Of a stretch of DNA of 64,000 nucleotides, positions 628 to 64,000 are shown one piece after another. Under the pieces are notes generated by a model. It made no database searches, was not told the DNA's origin, and was given only the letters and a program-made list of their open reading frames with translations. The stretch covers positions 23,479,934 through 23,543,933 of the forward strand of contig OY783197.1 in NCBI GenBank assembly GCA_963678675.1, in the 5' to 3' direction. Position 1 is the stretch's first letter. Every line of letters begins with the position of its first letter. The translations under genes were made by a program, and so were the position numbers. Source of the DNA: Xiphydria camelus. Its lineage: Eukaryota > Arthropoda > Insecta > Hymenoptera > Xiphydriidae.

Positions 628-1008
628 ATACCGTATGTATCATCCCAAATTAAACGAGCAGAGATACCGACATTGCCGAAACTTTACCGACGGTCAAGAA
701 TTTGATAGTTAGAGTTGGCTTGAGAAGAGTGCGCTGTGTGTGCTGCGTGAGAGCGAAAAGTGTCAAACGTCTGATTTCCCGATAGCTGTTAATTCAAGAG
801 ATCGAAGTGTTTCGTCTATTATTCAATACTTCGATTTTCCGAATTGACAGCTATCGGGAAATTAGACGTTTGACACTTTTCGCTCTCACGCAGCACACAC
901 AGCGCACTCTTCTTAAGCCAACTCTAACTATAAAATTCTTGACCGTCGGTAAAGTTTCGGCAATGTCGGTATATCTGCTTGTTTAATTTGGCATGATACA
1001 TACGGTAT
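628..1008. repeat. Large foldback palindrome (about 170-bp arms)
   Basis: Positions 628-796 read almost perfectly as the reverse complement of 841-1008. Complementarity continues inward (atcgaagt / acttcgat), so the single-stranded loop would be only about 15-20 nt. No coding capacity is evident. This is the structure of a foldback or long-TIR non-autonomous DNA element. I see no clear target duplication outside the arms. The high arm identity suggests a young insertion or ongoing arm conversion. Confidence 0.85.
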
Positions 1009-1012
1009 CGGG

Positions 1013-1092
1013 GCGACATTTACCTTCGGACGTACCTATTTGCCGACGGTGCACATGTACCGTCGGCAAATACTGCCGAAGGTAAATGTCGC
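1013..1092. repeat. Second, smaller palindrome directly adjacent
   Basis: The arm beginning gcgacatttaccttcgg pairs with the reverse complement ending at 1092, with the centre near 1051-1056 (accgtcgg around gcacatgt). It is flanked by a 13-bp imperfect direct repeat, acatacggtatcg (998-1010) and acatacggtaccg (1107-1119). The left copy of that repeat lies in the terminal part of the 628-1008 palindrome. Confidence 0.8.
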
Positions 1093-4039
1093 TTGTTGCG
1101 TTACGGACATACGGTACCGTAGTTATATCAACAGTTAATAATAGTAAAGGTATGTCCACCGAGCCATTCGTTCTAATTCTCCTTCAATTTGAAGTTTTCC
1201 AACTTCACCAGAGATGACACCACATTCACCTTAAGATTGCGTATCTTTCCCTCCCTCTTACCTATTTCTATTATCTTGTCTATTTCTAATTCAAACCTGA
1301 AGAAGTAAAAATTGACGATAAATCAATTAAACTTTCAACGAGCGAACGAAATAACTCATTATGCCATTTCCTCATCAGAACTAATTATTGAGACCATTCG
1401 CAAGAACCTGCAGAACTAAATAGAAGGTTGTTTTGAGAAAAAACAACAATGGAGAAACAGTAAACCTAATTCGGAACAGCGAAACGTTCTCGAATTTCGC
1501 ACCGAAAGTATTACTCCTACGAATTTGAATTCATTGCAATTTATTACCAAGCGTGCAACCTAACAACGCCATAATCAGTATGTACAACGCGTCGACACTT
1601 TCTACAAATACAGGATATCTGTCATTTCCATCCAATCACGTTGCCCGTTTTGAGTCGAGTCACGTCATTATCGCGATCCATTAAGCCGGGTTCCCACTCC
1701 GCGAAACTGTTTCGCGAAAAAGAGAGAGTGAGTGAGAAGAGGGAGCGCGAGAAAAAGAGGGGAGACACGACTCGCGCGAATACCCACAGCAGTTTCGCGC
1801 AGTGTCAATCCGGCTTTAGACGCGATTACAAATTCTTTCTCGCTCCGATGCACGAAAGCGTGGACCGTGTAACGATGGTGAGAAGGAGATAGCATGAGCG
1901 ACGCTCTCAATCTCGTCAGACAGACCTCTACGGTAATAAAGATGATTTATGTTACCGGGGCAGAGATGAATGAACTAATAATTACCGAGTTATTGATTGC
2001 CGCGAGCGATAGGTCAGTTTGAGGAATAGTCTATCTGGAAGGTGAAAAGGGGCTGGGGAAAACTACCAGTGATTTTTCTTTCGAGCGGAATAACTTTTCG
2101 TTATCAACCCGTCAGAACGCGCATCGTGAGCATTTTGCTCACGGTAATTTTGAAAGCGATAATATTCGTTAATTTTAAATGGCATGTATAGTCCAAACTT
2201 CGTCTATCTTCATGAAATTTATTCTGCAGTGGGAATCCAAGAATTTGGATACCGTCGGGAGGACTGCTCAAATTTCTAAACCCGCGCTCGTAGGCGTGAC
2301 TCGTGAGTGGGAGAAATTATACGTACACGCGGATATCTTGGGAATAGAAGTGCGTGTGCTGCAGTAGGCCGTCTCAACTATCGTGCCCCTCTCTTGAATA
2401 CCGACAAAGCAACGACAGAGGGGACACGAAAGTAAGGGATACCCAAATTTCTGGGAGCCCAAATTCTTATAGAACCCCATTGTACTTTGTTACACTGATA
2501 GGTATGTGCCAAGTTGATATAATCTTAGAAAAAGATATTCATTATTATTCCGAACCTCGTGTTTCGCCGTGGGAGTTTTTCTCATCGCGGGTCTATATTC
2601 GGCTGGAAGAAAATTTACGTTCGGTATCGTGTGCTGACGTTCGGTTATTTCCGGTTCACAGCTACGTTGTGCACACAGGCACACTCGTGTATGACATTTA
2701 TTGCGTCATAACTCATAATAAGCTTTTAAAAAATAAAATGTTTATTAATTATTTTCTTACTCGATCGTGCATTTACTTATTAATCGATTTCCGAACTTTA
2801 GTTGACATGAAAACGCGCGCGCGCTTCGGTGAGAGAAACTCTCCTCACGCGCCTACTCTACGCTGGTAAAATGACGCGCTTACTGACGGGTTAAAAAAAT
2901 ATTTAGATCAAACGCGCGATTTCGGCTGCAAACTCCGAGCAGCGGAGAAAGTTTGTAGAGCCAGACTCTGCTTCGGCGTATCACTGCATCCCTCCGTCCT
3001 CGCTCACGGTATACAGTATATAGCGCCCACTCTCCACTCGAATTCCAAACGTCTACAACCACACCTGCAACCGCGTACTCCTCCCCAGCCTCCGGCGTAA
3101 TTAGTCCCAGACGAGTCCGCCCGCAGCGCGAGCGTGAAAGTCAAATCCCGCGAGTTTCGGGAGGTCGACTCCCGCCGCAGCCACTCGGTAAGTCGAGGTG
3201 CCGGTCCATTATCGGGCACCGAGCCAGCCGCGCGGCGCGATTAACATAGAGATTAACATAGCGTTAATATTAATGCCCCTGCTCTCGGCTTTTTACATAT
3301 TTATAAGGATCCAATTATCTCGTACACGGGTTAATTTATGTTATTACGGACTATCAATAAAAATAATTGCTTTATTAACATTGACTAATGGTGAGTTTAC
3401 ATTCATAATGCATTCGTCGCTGACGCGCGGTGGATGCGCTCTCCCAGCGGGGTCCCTACCTCGGCGTCAACGTCGTTACGCCCGTCCGCGCGACCGATTC
3501 CCCTCTCTTTCCGCTCTTTCGCCTTCACCGCCATCGGATGAGTTCCGAATAAACTCGGACGCGTCATCGCGGAATGGAGTGGGAGTGGTGCGAAACGAAG
3601 GTGCATGTATGGTATAAGCATATGGGACTCCTCGAGGAAGGGACGCATAAGAGGTTTACGATTATCGCCGTTATCGTCATCATCGTCGTTATTATTACAA
3701 GTATTATCGTCGTCGAGCCGCTTACCACCGAGCACCGTGGTACACGGTCCGCGATCGTATTAAATTTAATGGGAGTGCGATGAGGTAGGCATTCGCTCGT
3801 CCTCCACCGACACGGTTTATACTCGCCACCACCGTGGAATATAAATCACTCGGTACACACAACCGCGTCGTTTATAAAGCTAAGCGACGATGGGTCAAGC
3901 CGTGCGATCTTCGCGAGTACTTGTGTGCATCGGTGTAAATATATGTACCTACATGGGGTCGAATCTACCTGCTGGACCGATATTCCGAGGTGTGAATATT
4001 CTTGAAAATGAATTTGATTCTTCAATTTTCATCCCTCGA
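1093..4039. other. Intergenic, with one MITE at 1684-1815
   Basis: No gene is supported. Apart from the MITE listed separately, 2230-2480 contains a weak inverted pair (gaatccaagaatttgg near 2231 and cccaaatttctgggagccc near 2442) that may be a decayed foldback. 2810-3240 and 3410-3600 are CpG-rich. The 171-codon open frame at 2354-2869 has no recognisable domain and crosses compositionally different blocks. Confidence 0.5.
1684..1815. mobile_element. MITE, Harbinger-like (TTA target duplication)
   Basis: A 132-bp element bounded by TTA at 1681-1683 and 1816-1818. The left end AGCCGGGTTCCCACTCCGCG and the reverse complement of the right end AGCCGGATTGACACTGCGCG are imperfect terminal inverted repeats of about 26 bp, continuing into GAAACTG. 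The interior is GA-rich and non-coding. A 3-bp TTA duplication is typical of the PIF/Harbinger superfamily; the family assignment is inferred. A second element with similar ends is at 48838-49041. Confidence 0.75.
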
Positions 4040-4173
4040 TAAAGGGCTGTCTATAAATTACGTAAGGTTTCTAGGAGGGAGAAGGAGTCTAAGCCAATCT
4101 CTCTGGTAATTTACGTTAGGGGGAGGGAGGGAGGGGGTCAATTTTACGTAAGAAATATTACAGGAATTCTTCC
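4040..4173. repeat. Partial transposon end (GGGCTGTCTATAAATTACGTAA type)
   Basis: The sequence begins gggctgtctataaattacgt. Related 'acgtaa' motifs recur in the next 130 bp (tttacgtt, tttacgtaag). Ends of this kind, a GGxCTGTC start followed by AATTACGTAA, are familiar from DNA-transposon relics in insect genomes. No opposite end is visible, so this is a fragment at best. Confidence 0.35.
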
Positions 4174-4660
4174 TTTACTCCTTATATAAAATGAAGAAGA
4201 AGTCACTGCACTTAAATGTTGGTAAAAAATCAACAATAGTTTTTCAATAGCATTGCGAGATTTTTAAAAGTGATGCTATGCACTTTGCGCAAGTAACTGA
4301 AACTGGTCCAAGAAGTTCCATCACTGAGGAAACAATTTATTAATAGTTGAGAAATGTAATTTAAAATGCGGCGAAATAAATATCTCGTTAGGACGATGAA
4401 ATATATCGACTGCCCAGAATAATAATGTTCTAACTCCACATTTTATCAATAGTGAAAGAGTGATCGTACTCCTAGTTTTATCTATTACAAATTTTCCAAA
4501 TAATACTGTACATTACTTTTGTGTACAAAGAAGATTTACGTTGATATATTGTTTTATATATTATAGCAGTTGTAACGTTCTCTTCTTATTTGCCCACTAC
4601 TGTGAAATTTATGTAAACGGAGTTAGAACATTGTTCTCCTGGGTATTCGATGTTAATTAA

Positions 4661-4800
4661 AAATTTTAGGCTTTCCCGGCCATAGTCATTATAGTTACGA
4701 GTCTTACTATTTTTATTCTTATTCTTATTCGTATTCTTGGCTTCCGGGTAGTAACCGCGTATTCCACCCGGAAGCCAAGAGTAGTAATACTCATAACTAG
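4661..4800. repeat. Foldback repeat, GGCTTCCGGGT family copy 1
   Basis: The left half carries ttttaggctttcccggcc, then gttacgagtcttacta, a (TTATTC)n run at about 4711-4740 and cttggcttccgggtagtaac. The right half contains the reverse complements ccacccggaagccaag and gtagtaatactcataac. The same module, without the right half, is at 30752-30834. It is a dispersed repeat of unknown class. Confidence 0.7.
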
Positions 4801-6222
4801 GTATATGTTAATTATTAAAATCTTTATTTCATTCAAATGGTGCCCTCAAAGTATTTCATTGTGCTAAAAAGATATCGTAATAGTTAACAGATATTTACTT
4901 GATCCAATAAAACATTTATTTCGCCGTATTCAAACAAACTATTATTACCTATAAATAAACTGTTTTCTCAGTGCGTACAAACCTTTTATAACGAGTTTGA
5001 TAAATTTAATTTTTTTACGTGATATCATATAAGGGGAAGGAACGAAGAAGAGAAATCTTACTGACTTCTCTTACATGGAAGATGAAAGTTATACGTCCTA
5101 CTAATTAAAACACCCCACGCATTGCCCCAAGTCCAGCAACCCCGGGAGATTCGACTGTACTCGCACACCTCACCTACCCACGCGTACAGGCGTTAACGTT
5201 TTCGCATCAAGACTTCCGCGCGGGGAGACAGACGGTCGCTTTATAACTCATTGACAGTTACATATAGGCAGGCGCGTAAGCGCGCGTGGGCGAACGACAG
5301 CGAAGTAGACGCTGTTAGGCCGATTATATTTCCAGCGGTGAGAGAGGTAGCGCGCTCCCCGCCTCTATCTCTCGCGGTGGCCCGTAGACGCGCGCGTACG
5401 CACACGACGCCGATGCACGCATCGGTGTAGAACGCGCGTATGAACGTACCGCGCAGCGGCGACCTAGGTGAATGATGTAGCTATTTGGCGGTAGCATGCA
5501 GGGGGTCCCGTGTAGCGCCGCTAATGTTTCCGTCATCTATTAGCCGCTCTCTCTTATCTCGCGGTGTTCGTTCGTTCATTCGCTCGTCCATCCGTCCGTC
5601 CGTTCGTTTAGATTGGAAGCGGCGAACACGCCGACCCAATATAAATTACGATCGCTATCTCTCGCGCGCCTAGTCTCCATCTATACTCCCTGAGAGGGAG
5701 GGAGGGAGGCAGGCGCGCTCACGGAGCCCGTGTTAAACCCGGGGGCAACCTTTGTCACGTGAGAGGCGATATTTATTTGAGCTCCATGAATATTTATAGG
5801 CCTCCTCCGCGCGGGGCTTGTAAGTAAAAATGAACGATTTGTTCAACAGTTTCCTGCCCCGGTGATAGAGCGTCGCCGGGGCTCTCTTGGGATGTATTTG
5901 TATAATTGTATACGACGGGGTAGTGGGGAGAAATTATCGCGCGTACAGTTCGGTCTCCACCGGTGTCCTCGTTCGGAGAGGGACGCGAAGTCGTTCGGGA
6001 GGAGATTTTTTCGCGTGGCGGCGATTCCAAGACGAGCTTCCAGGCTGCTCACGGTGAAAGAAAGCGGAGTAGTTCTCTGACTACTAATTTTCTGGCTCCT
6101 GAAGCGGTAATGTAGTCTCGAGTGACTACAGCACCATTCAACAGCTAGAAAACAACATGAATAGGAGCACGATATCACTTCTGTAGCGATACGTATTATA
6201 TTACTCGTGTGGAAATGCTTAA
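4801..6222. other. Intergenic; solitary pogo-like end near 5130-5158
   Basis: No gene is recognised. Near 5130-5158 the sequence ends ggagattcgactgta, which resembles the terminal repeat of Tigger/pogo elements (compare 12397-12858), but no partner end was found. 5240-5660 is CpG-rich with short ttcg/tccg tandem runs near 5563-5610. The overlapping open frames on both strands at 5794-6178 look like chance frames in GC-rich DNA. Confidence 0.45.
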
Positions 6223-6866
6223 GGAGTGTCTTTCAATTCTGTGGATTTTGAAAATAGCTCGTGGGAATTTTTCAAGTTATAATTAATCAGGTTACACCAA
6301 TTCATGAGATCAAATTCGCCCAATCAGTATTCAATCTTCATTGGATAATATTTAATGTCATCCGATAAAAATCGAACTCTCACTGAGCAACCACGTCTAC
6401 TGAACTAGTGTGCCTTGAATAAAGCTGAATACTTCCTAAAAGTCAAAAAATCGAAAATGCGTCATATGTGTCACGCGGCTCGTAATAACTCAATAAAGAG
6501 AATAGATGCGACGTTCTAATACATTATATTGGATTCAGCGAAATAATTTACGGGCTGCTACCGCGCGTGTCCGAATTTGCTGTAAGTACACGATAAATCT
6601 AATATTGCTCGAATTATCGGTGCCTGTCTGATCAAACTGAAATCACGCAAGCCAGCATGCTCATCGCTTGCGATCTTCTAAATTGAATAAAAAATTTGCA
6701 GACTGTTAAACGAAAAAAACCACACAATAGAGCAACATGTAAATAATTAAATAGGAGAGATTAAAATATATTTTAGTGAATTGCAGTAAACAGAGACGGA
6801 GATATTACGAGCCTATTAATTTGATTAAATTTTTCCAATTTCCAACAAAATTAAAAGACGCACCCC
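6223..6866. mobile_element. TTAA-flanked non-autonomous element, copy 1
   Basis: Flanked by TTAA at 6219-6222 and 6867-6870. The ends are GGAGTGTCTTTC and the reverse complement GGGGTGCGTCTTTT. Much of its length is homologous to 44997-45708, for example caccaattcatgagat versus caccgattcatcagat, and ttaatgtcatccgataaa versus ttaatgtcatccaataaa. No open frame of interest is present. A TTAA target is used by piggyBac and Kolobok elements; which one applies here is not settled. Confidence 0.7.
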
Positions 6867-27587: not shown

Positions 27588-29466
27588 CTACAATCCACGT
27601 TTTTGCGCCTCTTTAAAGAGTGCTACAAGAGAATCTATGGTCTCTTTAGCCGTAGGAATGATCTGTTCCGCTGGAAGGAGAAATCCGTGTAATCCCTCGT
27701 CGCGCAATTCGTAGGTGTAAACGAGAGGGGTGCCGTGAGTAGCTTTCACCCAGTCCGTGGAGCTTCCGGTCGCAACGTCTGTTAAATAATATTTGCGTTG
27801 GACAAACGAATTTCTCTAGGAATCAGAATTCGAAGTCGTTACTTACAGATTGTTTCGGCGACATTTCCGACGGTGTATTTAGTACCGTATCTCCTTTCCA
27901 GAGCCTCGGCTGCCTTGAGGCCAATCGGGTACTGGAAGAAAGCGAGACGCAAGTCGATCATTGACTATACATTGCGGGAATTAATCAAGATTCGTAGAGC
28001 ATTTAGTCGTTTCACCGTGGTGTTGTAATTATCGAGATGTTCCTTGGTATCGCCGTAGGGTATCAGGAGGAGTTGGGAGTAACTGTGGAACGAGATGTAA
28101 GCGTAGAATTGGTCGGCCACGGATGTGATATACTCGGACAACGACTTCGTTTCAATTTCGGAGAACACCGAAGGGCCGGCGTAGGTTCCGGTGCAAGGCA
28201 GGATGCTGGCTCCACCTCCTTGGGAAATTAAAAGACGCGTTTTACGGGTAAAAGGATTTGTAGAGAAAAGATTTGAAAAACTAATTGTACGTTCGGATCT
28301 CTCACCCATCCATTTGTATCCCCAGTTTCTGTTAGCATCGGCACCGTAGCAAGAGCGTAGACTCGTGTAAGGGGTACGCGTTCTGCGCCACAATCGACTC
28401 TGAAACGCGATTATCGTTCGATTTCCGAATCGAAAGTTCACGTGGGAAACTTCCGTAAATTCGCTTCATCGGCTATCGCCGGCTAGAAAATTTGAACCTC
28501 TCGCTTTATACCTCTTCGTGACTGTAAGCGTAACCATCCGGATTGATCGAGGGGAAGATGAACCAGTTGTGTCGATCCGCCATCTCCCTGATATCGGGAT
28601 CCTCGCTGGTCAATAACTCGTTGATGATGTAAGTCGCGGTCGCTGGCGCGATCCACTCTCGAGCGTGAGTGCCACCCTCGATGAAAACGCCGGGATTCTT
28701 TTTCCCAAAGGTCAGCTTGACGCCCTTGATTTGTCGATCCTCGTACGAGCTACCGCCTACGATGATCTTGACTTTGTCCGGATAAGTCTTCGTCAACGAG
28801 TCCAGCCAGTCGTAGATCTGATCCAGAGTGTTGTAGCTGGTCCAGTCGAAGGCTTCCGATGCACGGGTTATTGAAATGTCGCTGTCGATCAGCCTCTGGA
28901 CATCTTCGATTTGAGTCGCGTAGCTGAGACCGATCCGCTTCATGTATTGAGAGAATTCGTCCAACTTGTGCGGAGCTACCATGACGCTGACATTTCGTCC
29001 GGTGAAGCTGGGTTCGATCCAGAAGTCGTACTGCGGATGAAGCAAGCGGTCAAGACTTTCCTTTGAATATGCACTCGTTGAAAATACCTATGAGGCTAAA
29101 CTTACTCGTCTGGAAAAAAAAATTTTAACCGCTATTACCTTATTATTTATGAACTTTTGGCCTGCATCAGTATAAGACTTTGTTGTAGATAAAAATATAA
29201 TCTTCAATAAAACGTGCTATAAAAACATGAGCTCAAAAATAATGAGAAAAGAGTGATTCAAAGTTCTCTCCTAGCGAGTAAGTTTAGCCTCATATGATAT
29301 ATGCTAGAATTTGACCTACTCCTTCGGAAGATCGTTGAAGCTTCTGCAAAGCGGCGAGCTGTTCGGTCGACCGGGGGAGGAACCTGAAGACCCTGTAGTT
29401 CTCGTAAGACACCTTTTCGGCAGTGACCAGCGCGAGCACCGCGAAAATTGCCAGGCACTTCAACAT
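27588..29466 (-). CDS. Secreted zinc carboxypeptidase (M14A), six exons
   Basis: A metallocarboxypeptidase that removes C-terminal residues from peptides, probably a secreted gut enzyme. Exons on the minus strand: 29466-29320, 29030-28512, 28399-28306, 28218-28016, 27931-27847, 27778-27588. All introns are GT-AG, 68-289 nt long, phases are consistent, and the product is 412 residues. Residues 1-16 (MLKCLAIFAVLALVTA) form a signal peptide. A pro-region follows, with likely cleavage near Arg105 (SITR/ASEAF). Zinc ligands are His171 and Glu174 (THAREW) and His298 (SFHSYSQ). Substrate-binding residues include Arg173, Arg227, Asn245-Arg246 (ANRNW) and Tyr350. The catalytic base is Glu373 (YTYELRD). 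The position matching bovine CPA Ile255 is Thr (ATGSSTDW), so it is not a B-type acidic pocket. The exon 4 acceptor could shift by 3 nt (AAG/GAG). Length and layout are normal for the family and nothing is missing. It stands alone, with no neighbouring gene recognised. Confidence 0.95.
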
Positions 29467-53096: not shown

Positions 53097-54162
53097 AAAG
53101 GTCAAAGCACATCTAGGCGAAGCGAAGCGACGCGAAGCGCGGCTGTGCAACGCACACTTGGGCGAAGCGAAGCGACGTGAAGCGAAGCGCGGCGAATTCT
53201 ATCCCCTTCTCTACCAGGTATAAACAGCTATACCTGAAAATATCCGTATATGGATACCCGGGTAGAGAAGGGAGGGAAGGGAAGCGCCGTGAAATGTCAG
53301 TCATTTTCGCCTTTTTCGCCTTTTTCATTCATTTTCGCCTTTTTCAAACTGATGAACGCAACGTGAAATGAGCCGTGTACATGTTTTGTTTTGAGAAATG
53401 GGCATTCGTGAGGAAAAATAGTATATGTCATTCGGCGGAAATCCTCGGAATTTTAAGACTGTATTTATATAGATCGTAGCCTCCTCCCCAAACCATGCCT
53501 CGCGTGTTACGACCTAATTAAACACAGTCTGAAAAAATCTCGAATTTCCGCCTTATGATATAAGATACTATTTCGTGTGAGAAAATTCATTTCGTTGACG
53601 AGATCTATCTTGGAAAGGATTTTCGAATCGTTAACGGAAGTGATCGACGAAACTTTACACCTGTTAACGAATTACATTCCGTCCACGATAAACATTTCTC
53701 GCGGCGCTTCGCTTCGCGGCGCTTCGGTTCGCCGCGCTTCGCTTCGCTCAAGTGTGCGTTACCTCGTAAGAATCAATGGAAATATAAAAGGTAGCTTCGC
53801 TTCGCGGCGCGTCGCTTCGCTGCGCTTCCAGTCGCACAAGTGTGCTTATCCTAGGTCGCGGCGCTTCGCTTCGCTTCGCGTCGCGTCGCTTCGCTCAAGT
53901 GTGCGTTACCTCATAAGAATCAATGGAAATATAAAAGGTAGCTTCGCTTCGCGGCGCTTCGCTTCGCTCAAGTGTGCGTTACCTCGTAAGAATCAATGGA
54001 AATATAAAAGGTAGCTTCGCTGCGCTTCCAGTCGCACAAGTGTGCTTATCCTAGGTCGCGGCGCTTCGCTTCGCTTCGCTCAAGTGTGCGTTACCTCATA
54101 AGAATCAATGGAAATATAAAAGGTAGCTTCGCTTCGCTTCGCCTAGATGTGCTTTGGCCTTT
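53097..54162. mobile_element. Satellite-bearing element with long TIRs (GCGAAGCGAAGC)
   Basis: Terminal inverted repeats: AAAGGTCAAAGCACATCTAG at the left and, as reverse complement, AAAGGCCAAAGCACATCTAG at the right, both running on into gcgaagcgaagcg. Inside the right half is an array in which cttcgctcaagtgtgcgtta recurs near 53743, 53891, 53963 and 54075. It alternates with cgcacaagtgtgcttatcct (about 53833 and 54033) and aatcaatggaaatataaaag. The higher-order unit is about 200 bp. The left half has the reverse-complement motif (cgcacacttgggcgaagcga). No gene; the 145-codon frame is a translation of the repeats. Confidence 0.75.
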
Positions 54163-60414: not shown

Positions 60415-60639
60415 TATGCGCGCGTTATAAAGGTTTGCAGGGGATATGTGCACCGAAAGGGTTAAATTAAACGCGAGATGTTGTAACAATTATCTGATGT
60501 ACATGATATTAATAATATTATTTTGTACGAGAATAATTGAATCTTTTCCATAAAACCATCAACATCTTTATCTTCTTCCGGAATTTCCTCGATAAAATGA
60601 GATTACCCGAGTGACAAGATTTCTCGGCCAATAAAGATT

Positions 60640-61495
60640 CTATGTAGGCACGATATTGGTTTTGTACCGGCCAGCCTATGTAGGTTTTCCATTATGAGGG
60701 CAATGTTGGTTTGGGAACGGTCAACCTACATATACGTCACCTACATACAAGCGATATTGGTCCTATGACGGACAGCCTATAAAGGTCACTTCCTACGTAG
60801 GGGCGATATTGGTTTAGCAATATCTGGCCTACATAGGCCATTCTATATAAGGGCAATCTTAGTTTTGCGAAAGTCATCCTATGAAGGCCAAATCCTACAT
60901 AGGAGCGATATTGATTTTACAATATCCGGCTGTTATAGGTTATCCTTTATAGGGGCAATGTTGGTTTTGCGATTGTCAACCTATATGGGCCACACTACAT
61001 GCGAGCGATGTTAGGCCTGTGACGGTCAGCCTATATAGGCCATATCCTATGTAGGGGCGGTATTGGTTTCACAATATCCGGCTTTTATAGGTTATCCTGT
61101 ATAGGGGCGATGTCGGTGTTGCGATTGTCAACCTATATGGGCCACACTACATGCGAGCGATGTTAGGCCTGTGACGGTCAGCCTATATAGGCCACATCCT
61201 ATGTAGGGGCGGTATTGGTTTCACAATATCCGGCTTTTATAGGTTATCCTGTATAGGGGCGATGTCGGTGTTGCGATTGTCAATCTATATAGGCCACACT
61301 ACATGTAGGCGATGTTAGGCCTGTGACGGTCAGCCTATATAGGCCACATCCTATGTAGGGAAGATATTGGTTCCACAATATCCGGCTTTTATAGGTTATT
61401 CTTTATACGAACGATGTTGGTTTTGCGATTGTCGACCTATATAGGCCACACTACATGTGAGCGATGTCAGTTCTGTGACGGCCAGCCTATATAGA
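60640..61495. repeat. Left minisatellite, 152-bp unit of three ~50-bp subunits
   Basis: ttaggcctgtgacggtcagc begins at 61011, 61163 and 61315, an exact 152-bp spacing. Each unit contains three subunits of about 50 bp with a ctatataggcc/ctatgtaggggc/ctgtataggggc core. The outer (left) part is more diverged than the centre, giving about 5.6 units in all. Confidence 0.9.
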
Positions 61496-61534
61496 AGGGC
61501 ATTCACCACAAAATATATATACAAAAGATGTCGC

Positions 61535-61625
61535 GTCGGTCATATATACTATAATATAAGATCGAGGGGACAATTCTTGCACCCAGTACTCTCGTGGGCT
61601 TCGGCATTGAACTCTAAAGTTTACT
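61535..61625 (+). promoter_or_regulatory. Possible promoter and leader of the DUF4806-like gene
   Basis: Between the left minisatellite and the ATG are only about 130 bp. An AT-rich TATA-like stretch (atatactataatataag, about 61543-61560) lies 65-80 bp before the ATG. The adjoining array may therefore be part of, or abut, the promoter. Confidence 0.3.
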
Positions 61626-63066
61626 ATGGATCGGAAACGGACATTGATCCGAGAACGTGTTCAAAAGCATCGATGTAAAAAGCGTGCTCTGAAAAAGTGG
61701 GAACAAGTACGGAATGCTGCAGTGTTGGAAGAAGAAGGGGACTCTGGTTAGTATTACATAAAAATCGTACGTAATTTAACATTTTATAATCATTTTAGTA
61801 CGCGTTTTATTGAAGTACTTTAACTTTTTATGAAGAAATGATTGTTCCTCATTTGATTGAATTTTGTATACTTTCTAATGGATATTATAGTTGATTGAAT
61901 ATTGGAAACCTAACCTAAATCTCGAAAACGAGAAATATCATAATTTCTTATAAGATTGCGCGCGCGTTAATTCTATAGTAATATTTCTAAAAATTAACAA
62001 TACTAATCCATGAAATTATCATTTCTCCCATGAAAATTTCCCTCGACTTGAGAGTTAACACTTAACTTGAGGGAGATTTATGCGATGATATTGATTTATT
62101 ATCAAGTTTTCACCATTACGTCACAATTTTCGATTTAAACGGAAATTTTACTGAACTATTAGGAGTGGACGCGCCAAGCAAGGGCGATCCACGATGCCAG
62201 GTTGAAGCGGGCAGTTTCCCCCACAGTGACGTCAAGGCAACGGGGCTTTCCAACGCAGGCCCAGGACAAAGGAGCAAGGAGGACTCATGCTCCTCGAAGC
62301 AATCGAAGGAAGGCATTCGATCGACAACCGGCGAGGATCTCGGACCGTGGTTAGAGTCTTCGAGGATTGCTTATCGTGCGGCCGTCGAGTCTACCGCGCC
62401 GACCGTACCTTACACTTATTCATCATCATCAAGGTAATTCGTAACTGTTCGTTACATTCACTACAGGTAAGCCACAGATATAAGTACGAGGTTTTCTCAG
62501 TATTTTAGGGAAGGAGTTTTTTGGTTTTGGGGATTTTAAGAGTTTTAAAAAGATATATTTGCGATTTCTAGCGGAAATTTAAAGTGATTTTGAAATTTTC
62601 CTGATAATTTTTCTTGTTTTTGCAGAAAGAAATTTGAAGATACATTTTTGATGATGGGGAAAAATTGAAGAAAAACATCAAAACCGTTTTGATGAGTTTG
62701 ATGACTCGGGAAATTGCCATGAAGTTCACCGCGGTCAAGCCTAAGGAGAACAAAGACACATTTACTCATACCAACACTTCCCGGTTGATAGAAGGTAAAA
62801 TCATAAAGAAATTAGTAATATTATTAATAATAATAATTATGATAATAATTAATATTATTATTATTGAAATTACAGTTACTTTGAAAGATTTCTTGTCTTC
62901 GATGAGGCCCGAACAGAAGATGACGAAGAAAGAGTATGAGACAGCCCTGGGCTACGTTTTGACCAACGCGTACGACTGGGGTGATGGTCGAGTACAACGA
63001 CGACGAGAAAAAGCGGCCAAAGCGAAACAGAGTCCAACGGGGAAAAATCAAGTTTCGGAAAATTAA
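61626..63066 (+). CDS. DUF4806-like protein, four exons, frameshift in exon 3
   Basis: Exons 61626-61746, 62163-62433, 62626-62794 and 62876-63066. All introns are GT-AG (the first is about 416 nt, the third 81 nt). Exon 1 gives 40 residues, very basic (MDRKRTLIRERVQKHRCKKR). Exon 2 gives a Ser/Gly/Lys-rich linker. Exons 3-4 resemble the C-terminal DUF4806 domain of insect multi-copy genes: KNIKTVLMSLMTREIAMKF, later TNTSRLIEG, then KKEYETALGYVLTNAYDWGD and a basic tail. With the strong acceptor at 62625 the frame reads KKFEDTFLMMGKN and then meets TGA at 62666-62668. The domain continues in the next frame, so one base seems to be missing in the A/T run at 62659-62666. A weak acceptor 14 nt downstream (62638-62639) would also restore the frame. 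Function is unknown; the basic ends suggest nucleic-acid binding. A polyadenylation signal AATAAA follows at 63275. The gene fills a TIR-bounded element. Confidence 0.55.
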
Positions 63067-63274
63067 TCATACAACAACTATAACGACATATTTTAACAAC
63101 AATAACAAAATTTTAACACTGAAAAATGGATTCAAAGCACGTATATTCATTAGTATCGAATCCAATCAACATGTTTTTTTTTCGGTTCAGTTGTTAATTA
63201 ATCATAATAAGTGATTCATGAATTTTAATATAATTATGCTGTTCTCTATATGGAAATTCGATATTTCTCTGTGC

Positions 63275-63280
63275 AATAAA
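63275..63280 (+). terminator. Polyadenylation signal AATAAA
   Basis: AATAAA lies 209 bp after the stop codon of the DUF4806-like gene and about 70 bp before the right minisatellite begins. Confidence 0.55.
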
Positions 63281-63346
63281 AATTGATGTTCTATGCATTT
63301 GATTGATTTTATCTTAATTATTCTTACCATTTGACTTTAATTGTTT

Positions 63347-63955
63347 CGGCAATGTTTGGCCTGTGATATAGTCCGTGAATTACTTGGTCTGTATAATCTC
63401 TGAATCACTCAATTGGCTTATGTAGGTGGTACATCATACGGCGTGAATAGCCTCCATTGCGAGTGTTGTACTCTTGCTACGTAGGCCTATACAGACTCTA
63501 GCTTGCTGGTCTATGTAGCCTGAATATCATGAGGCCTATATCGTTTGCAAATTAAATACCCTATATAGCCTGAATATCACGTGGCCTATATAGTCTGCAA
63601 ATGGTAAGGCTTATATAGGCTGTACATTGCATGGCCTACATAGTCTGTAAATCGTGTGGCCCATATAGTCTGCAAAGCGTACGGCCTATATAGGCTGTAC
63701 ATTGCATGGCCTATATAGTCTGTAAATAGTGTGACCTACATAGGCTGTATATCGCACGGCCTACATAGGCTGTACGTTGCATGGCCTATATAGTCTGTAA
63801 ATAGTGTGACCTACATAGGCTCTACATTGCATGGCCTATATAGCCACTTTATAGACGAGCGTTACACTTCCTATATAGGCACTATGCAGGCTGCAGCTCG
63901 GTCGGCCTATATTGCCACCTCGGAAGGCCGATGTTGCCCCTACATAGAGCCGATG
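63347..63955. repeat. Right minisatellite, 25-bp unit
   Basis: Units such as ggcctatatagtctgtaaat (plus agtgt) and gacctacataggctgtatat (plus cgcac) repeat with a 25-bp period, most regular at about 63590-63840. The palindromic core cctatatagg is shared with the left array, but period and spacers differ. Confidence 0.9.
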
Positions 63956-64000
63956 AATTTTGTCAGTCGGGTATCGATACCAAGTACTCGGAGCGTACCT

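Follow-up and report, generated by a model that had tools for sequence, protein, structure and literature searches.

The window, by which we mean the whole 64,000-nucleotide stretch of DNA that was analysed, carries at 60606–63971 an element bounded by 22-bp inverted ends, one at 60606–60627 (CCCGAgTGACAAgATTtcTCGG) and the other, reversed, at 63950–63971 (CCCGAcTGACAAaATTcaTCGG). A 16-bp pattern taken from both ends has exactly two zero-mismatch matches in the window, which are the two ends themselves (at three mismatches there are seven window matches, which is the chance level), and the dinucleotide on both outer sides of the element is TA. Repeat arrays lie inside the ends and share a palindrome, CTAYRTAG, that occurs 28 times in the 1527 bp of the arms as against none in the 1839-bp core. 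Because the arrays sit inside its ends they travel with the element, and what the original prediction called minisatellites are subterminal repeats belonging to the element, with a 152-bp unit whose number varies by copy (one fewer in genomic copies L004, L005, L007, L013 and L014, two fewer in L018). No transposase frame is found among the reading frames of 60606–63971. The 22-bp ends, the outer TA and the inner arrays are thus all present where they had been reported, and a transposase frame is missing, as stated there. Elsewhere in the window GCTTCGC-rich units recur every 73 bp in an array (53699–54045), and on the minus strand at 27965–29087 there is a pair of reading frames that by eye resemble insect zinc carboxypeptidase. 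The features of the element are:

60604–60605, no strand: left copy of the target-site duplication, TA (sequence; flanking dinucleotides identical in 32 of 37 copies)
60606–60627, plus: left terminal inverted repeat, 22 bp (end-pattern matches in window and genome)
60640–61494, plus: left subterminal repeat array, periods of 50, 102 and 152 bp (unit number varies between elements)
61626–61746, plus: transposase exon 1 (MDRKRT...EEEGDS), transposase body missing (90% identical over 40 aa to a 17.3-kb element)
61747–62073, plus: what is left of transposase intron 1 (similarity to the 17.3-kb copy stops at 62073)
62074–62410, no strand: segment that is possibly a promoter or upstream exon of the second gene (not found in the 17.3-kb copy)
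62411–62466, plus: probable end of a non-coding first exon of the second gene, CAG/GTAAGC (predicted exon)
62626–62794, plus: coding exon 6 of the second gene, with an in-frame stop (TGA) in the window copy (match to the 17.3-kb element)
62876–63066, plus: last coding exon of the second gene, ending in a stop codon (match to the 17.3-kb element)
63275–63280, plus: AATAAA, polyadenylation-like signal (sequence)
63511–63938, plus: right subterminal repeat array, periods of 25, 50 and 75 bp (repeat analysis and CTAYRTAG count)
63950–63971, minus: right terminal inverted repeat, 22 bp (end-pattern matches in window and genome)
63972–63973, no strand: right copy of the target-site duplication, TA (sequence)

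Coding remnants and a full-size relative

The coding pieces of the window element were identified by comparison with a 17.3-kb element at C1:33033356–33050688, which has the same ends and is flanked by TG on both sides. Its transposase exon 1 runs from ATGGATCGG to GACTCTG and is followed by GTTAGT; after an intron ending in CTAG comes an open frame of 691 aa, which is in phase with this exon and makes a 727-aa transposase when joined to it. Further downstream lies a seven-exon second gene of 353 aa with no internal stop, in which all seven exons have a CAG acceptor and the first six a GT donor (the exon joins of both genes are predicted). Window positions 60606–62073, 62411–62472 and 62596–63406 and the right arm match parts of this element, and the CAG/GTAAGC donor is the same in both; 62411–62472 corresponds to L042 1897–1958 at 98%. 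Several transposase relatives have N-termini with which window exon 1 can be aligned. As only this exon of the transposase is present, the window copy is non-autonomous. Nothing in the window element matches coding exons 1–5 of the second gene as found in the 17.3-kb copy. Of the single spliced gene that had been predicted inside the element, therefore, the coding exons are real but are fragments of two genes. Our own first gene model (exon 1 joined to the GC-rich frame in the middle and then to the last exons) was wrong in the same way, being a mixture of the two, and a protein search with it gave no match at E ≤ 1 among 373 candidates.

Over alignable stretches the 17.3-kb copy differs from the window by roughly 6–12%, and it lacks 62074–62410 (partly present in L043 and L044), so that it is not the direct parent of the window element. 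Its transposase was found at only one locus in the genome (64 of 840 candidates scored). Three other copies were considered as full-size or autonomous partners and rejected. In L025 (4.9 kb) the extra piece is a nested 1.56-kb insert (4739–6295) within TTAA boundaries, with fragments that look piggyBac-like. L043 (7.7 kb) and L044 (5.2 kb) are both deletion derivatives with large nested inserts (933–6442 and 1616–4317, respectively) bearing mirrored reading frames, and those of the L043 insert include a cysteine-rich motif that by eye is of CXC type.

Capture of a host gene by a non-autonomous transposon, in the manner of Pack-TYPE elements, would explain a window copy that has coding exons without a transposase body, and the segment at 62074–62410 was not found in the 17.3-kb copy. 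Against this, exon 1 and the last exons correspond to the own transposase and second gene of a relative with the same ends, and in sister families a homologous second gene adjoins the transposase (see below). The coding pieces correspond to the two genes of the element itself, not to a host gene, and so are not captured cargo. This part of the original prediction is largely refuted; we consider it very improbable.

The label 'DUF4806-like' that was attached to the gene was not confirmed in Pfam tests, in which neither the window pieces nor composite second-gene proteins matched PF16064 (DUF4806) at E ≤ 10; the first coding exon of the second gene gave two weak, unrelated matches. The likeness of the second gene to DUF4806 is thus a presumed one, seen by eye, and the name calls for that caution. 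The accompanying suggestion that a DUF4806-like protein helps to mobilise the element survives in altered form, in that full-size relatives pair such a gene with a transposase.

Copies, duplications and age

Genome-wide, the end pattern at up to two mismatches gave 75 forward and 77 reverse matches (152 in all), compared with 0 and 0 for the reversed-pattern control. A search with the 1.76-kb core (40 of 760 candidates scored) identified at least 18 full-length matching places including the window, at 98–100% identity, at least one further place with a nested insert and at least 17 places with one internal deletion. Ends and body therefore occur as a unit at many loci. Flanks were surveyed at 37 loci (L001–L017 and L021–L040; L018–L020 coincide with L026, L025 and L024 and were excluded), of which L022 had no end pair and L038 had two, giving 37 elements. 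Flanking dinucleotides are identical in 32 of the 37 (TA 13; CA, AA and AT 3 each; CG, AC and GA 2 each; TG, CT, TC and TT 1 each), where base composition alone would be expected to give about three; the copies with unmatched dinucleotides are L007, L012, L033, L035 and L039. L028 and L035 (contig C29) share an identical 91-bp right flank that by eye comes from a Tc1-like transposase gene, and this sharing, together with the unmatched left side of L035, perhaps reflects rearrangement after insertion. For L021, L026 and L027 the joined flanks minus one dinucleotide align, through the point of insertion, with uninterrupted paralogous sequence (77%, 88–93% and 81% identity, respectively, with a 4-base gap near the insertion point in the L021 alignment). 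The recurrent unit, its 2-bp duplications and the paralogous empty sites bear out, through the alignment of copies with flanks that the original prediction proposed, its non-autonomous transposon. Its expectation of TA duplications was right as to their length, TA being only the commonest of 11 dinucleotides.

That same predominance (13 of 32) is what might suggest a member of Tc1/mariner, in which the duplication is TA only, or of PIF/ISL2EU. Nineteen of the 32 duplications are other than TA, and the relatives of the transposase match Transposase_21 (see below). ISL2EU elements, of the PIF/Harbinger group, have AT duplications and usually GG ends according to the portion of PMC4482050 compared here, a combination that the present family does not have. 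We give membership of either group practically no weight.

The family has been active recently. Mean pairwise difference among 18 young copies is 0.5% over about 1 kb, the window copy is 99.88% identical to L002 and 99.94% to L003, and an older set (L021, L023, L024 and L026) differs from the young copies by about 2%. Three of these older copies (L021, L023 and L024) have about 107 extra bases past the CAG/GTAAGC donor (window 62471) that are missing from the young ones. In the short copies a junction joining approximately 62318 to 63166, which removes exons 6 and 7, is common to all 14 examined and is also the one seen at the at least 17 places of the core search; the simplest reading is a single deletion that was later multiplied. 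On that reading, the second-gene exons removed in it are dispensable in cis. When old copies are compared with young ones, exons (provisional labels) differ by 2.6–3.4% (exon 1), 1.0–1.8% (exon 2), 1.3–3.1% (exon 3) and 2.9–3.9% (exon 4) and introns by 0–5.4%, so that exon divergence is about equal to intron divergence. These data bear on the idea that the DUF4806-like gene of the window copy is itself functional and mobilises the element, an idea favoured by the intact second gene retained in a full-size relative. With coding exons 1–5 unmatched, a stop in exon 6, exons about as diverged as introns and a form without exons 6 and 7 that has nevertheless multiplied, it is scarcely credible.

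The transposase and the second gene in other families

The 17.3-kb transposase has 256 relatives among 7990 candidates scored, the best at 73% identity; those named among the best 120 come from Leptopilina, Linepithema, Venturia, Fopius and other insects, the top ones being hymenopteran. Pfam gave nothing for this query protein at E ≤ 10. Relative P0038 matches Transposase_21 above the cut-off (2.9e-8), P0044 and P0052 match it below the cut-off, and five of the eight relatives scanned gave no such match. Among 70 aligned members (the query and 69 of the best 120 listed relatives) matches at E ≤ 0.01 were obtained to Transposase_21 (15), Plavaka (4), DUF1258 (3) and DUF4218 (2), with 55 of the 70 having no Transposase_21 match at this threshold. 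Residues D235, D314 and E557, presumably the CACTA catalytic residues, are invariant across 22 transposase sequences; across the 70, D235 is invariant and the other two are at least 90% conserved. In the X. camelus genome the 63 other scored transposase loci (64 of 840 candidates scored) are 31–43% identical to the query, and in 56 of the 64 the matched stretch has no stop. Contig C28 (25.5 Mb) holds 20 of the 64, about four times as many as its length within the 357-Mb assembly would predict.

One 6521-bp sister element (C1:25706237–25712757) has ends CCCGTGTGGAAA...TTTTTCCACACGGG (CCCG...CGGG) and TA on both flanks. Its first exon is short and basic, its transposase frame is open over 684 aa, and a second gene lies downstream, the order being that of the 17.3-kb element. 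Transposases of the sister families are about 40% identical, and alignment of the second genes of the two elements (N part 29%, E 9e-7; C part 28%, E 3e-14) indicates that they are homologous over both parts. In a third family (L046 and L047) the N part of the second gene follows the transposase at a distance of about 0.8 kb. When 70 of 105 second-gene rows were compared with the 64 scored transposase loci, a second-gene match was found within 12 kb downstream of the transposase in at least 19 of the 64, compared with about 0.08 expected; at 17 of the 19 all such matches are on the same strand, the other two being a facing pair on contig C10. Thirteen of the 19 seem to belong to a single family of near-identical members, which would leave about five independent groups. 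At the other 45 loci no second-gene match was detected within 12 kb downstream, through divergence or absence, and because these 45 include the 17.3-kb element and L046, whose second genes are otherwise seen, 19 is a lower bound. Conversely, 42 of the 70 second-gene rows could be placed within 12 kb downstream of a scored transposase and 28 could not. A search with a 287-aa composite gave no match at E ≤ 0.01 among 792 candidates, a result that applies to a mixed query (transposase exon 1 with second-gene exons 3–7) and leaves room for relatives of the true 353-aa protein.

From this evidence 60606–63971 is very probably a non-autonomous element that was active recently and that derives, by internal deletion, from an animal CACTA (EnSpm/TRC) transposon. 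Full-size relatives have two genes in the same direction, a transposase of two predicted exons followed by a second gene of several, and the window copy is without the body of the transposase and the greater part of the second gene but keeps its ends and subterminal repeats. These retained sequences would be the sites for a transposase complex, and the element probably moves in trans using the transposase of a full-size relative. For the second protein we prefer, as unproven, a role like that of plant TNPA, binding at the subterminal sites and thereby enabling the transposase. It is also possible, though doubtful, that the element is such a CACTA derivative and that the second gene of its relatives has nothing to do with end binding, serving for instance in evasion of silencing or in host regulation. 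The 6521-bp sister has no repeat array comparable to that of the window element, which weakens the array-binding idea, and the role of this protein is not legible in its sequence; against such alternatives, the position of the second gene downstream of the transposase in what appear to be about five groups is as a function in the element itself would predict, and plants offer a two-protein parallel (PMC2613891, in the portion consulted).

Returning to the TNPA-like reading, we put forward tentatively, as somewhat short of probable, that the conserved second protein of this animal CACTA lineage (which has no Pfam match here) is a TNPA-like partner, that the insect 'DUF4806-like' multi-copy genes are partly transposon genes, and that the window derivative is a substrate of a two-component system. 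In the literature compared (PMC1636069, in part) little was found on non-transposase proteins of animal CACTA elements. The second gene, which keeps its place next to the transposase across families that share only about 40% identity, offers a concrete candidate for that partner. The question can be put to the test with the derivative family, whose ends are ready-made and which has a full-size relative with open frames. Should kinship with DUF4806 be confirmed, such second genes may also account for some of the multi-copy DUF4806-like genes that the original prediction mentions in ants.

Comparison with known CACTA elements

By its ends and its relatives the window element is a non-autonomous member of the animal CACTA group. 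Its terminal inverted repeats start with CCC (CCCG...CGGG in the sister), the 2-bp duplication is without fixed sequence (32 of 37 elements, 11 dinucleotides), and a full-size element with the same ends has a transposase that is of the Transposase_21 (tnp2) type by homology only; the window copy has no transposase of its own. In the portion of PMC1636069 compared here, TRC is the animal form of CACTA, comprising SmTRC1 of Schistosoma and elements of Aedes and Tribolium, with CCC terminal-repeat starts, a 2-bp duplication (7 of 14 copies) and a Transposase_21 transposase in full-size members; SmTRC1 has an internal region of tandem repeats, and TRC and plant CACTA proteins are described as having no detectable conservation outside the Transposase_21 portion. 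The present elements agree with TRC in the CCC starts, the 2-bp duplication, the type of transposase in full-size members and the internal tandem repeats. The first three of these fit a published group, so that an undescribed superfamily, to which the original prediction pointed, is not supported. Differences are the homologous second gene that follows the transposase in some families, and the window copy's lack of a transposase. CMC-NA_1, CMC-NA_2 and ENS1_Cis (animal CACTA elements, of which the CMC-NA type is present in wasps) share the 2-bp duplication but have CAC...GTG ends as against CCC...GGG here (PMC6004678, as far as the part compared extends).

In plants, transposition by two proteins is established for CACTA elements, and En/Spm deletion derivatives keep their terminal and subterminal sites and move with two proteins supplied in trans, the TNPA-like second proteins differing between elements (sections of PMC2613891 consulted). 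Differences from En/Spm are the CACTA ends and 3-bp duplication of the plant elements, and the origin of both plant proteins from one alternatively spliced unit (same source), whereas here the second gene apparently has its own first exon. With its cis sites kept, subterminal repeats and two element proteins available from its relatives, as in the maize derivatives, the window element should, by analogy, work like an En/Spm deletion derivative.
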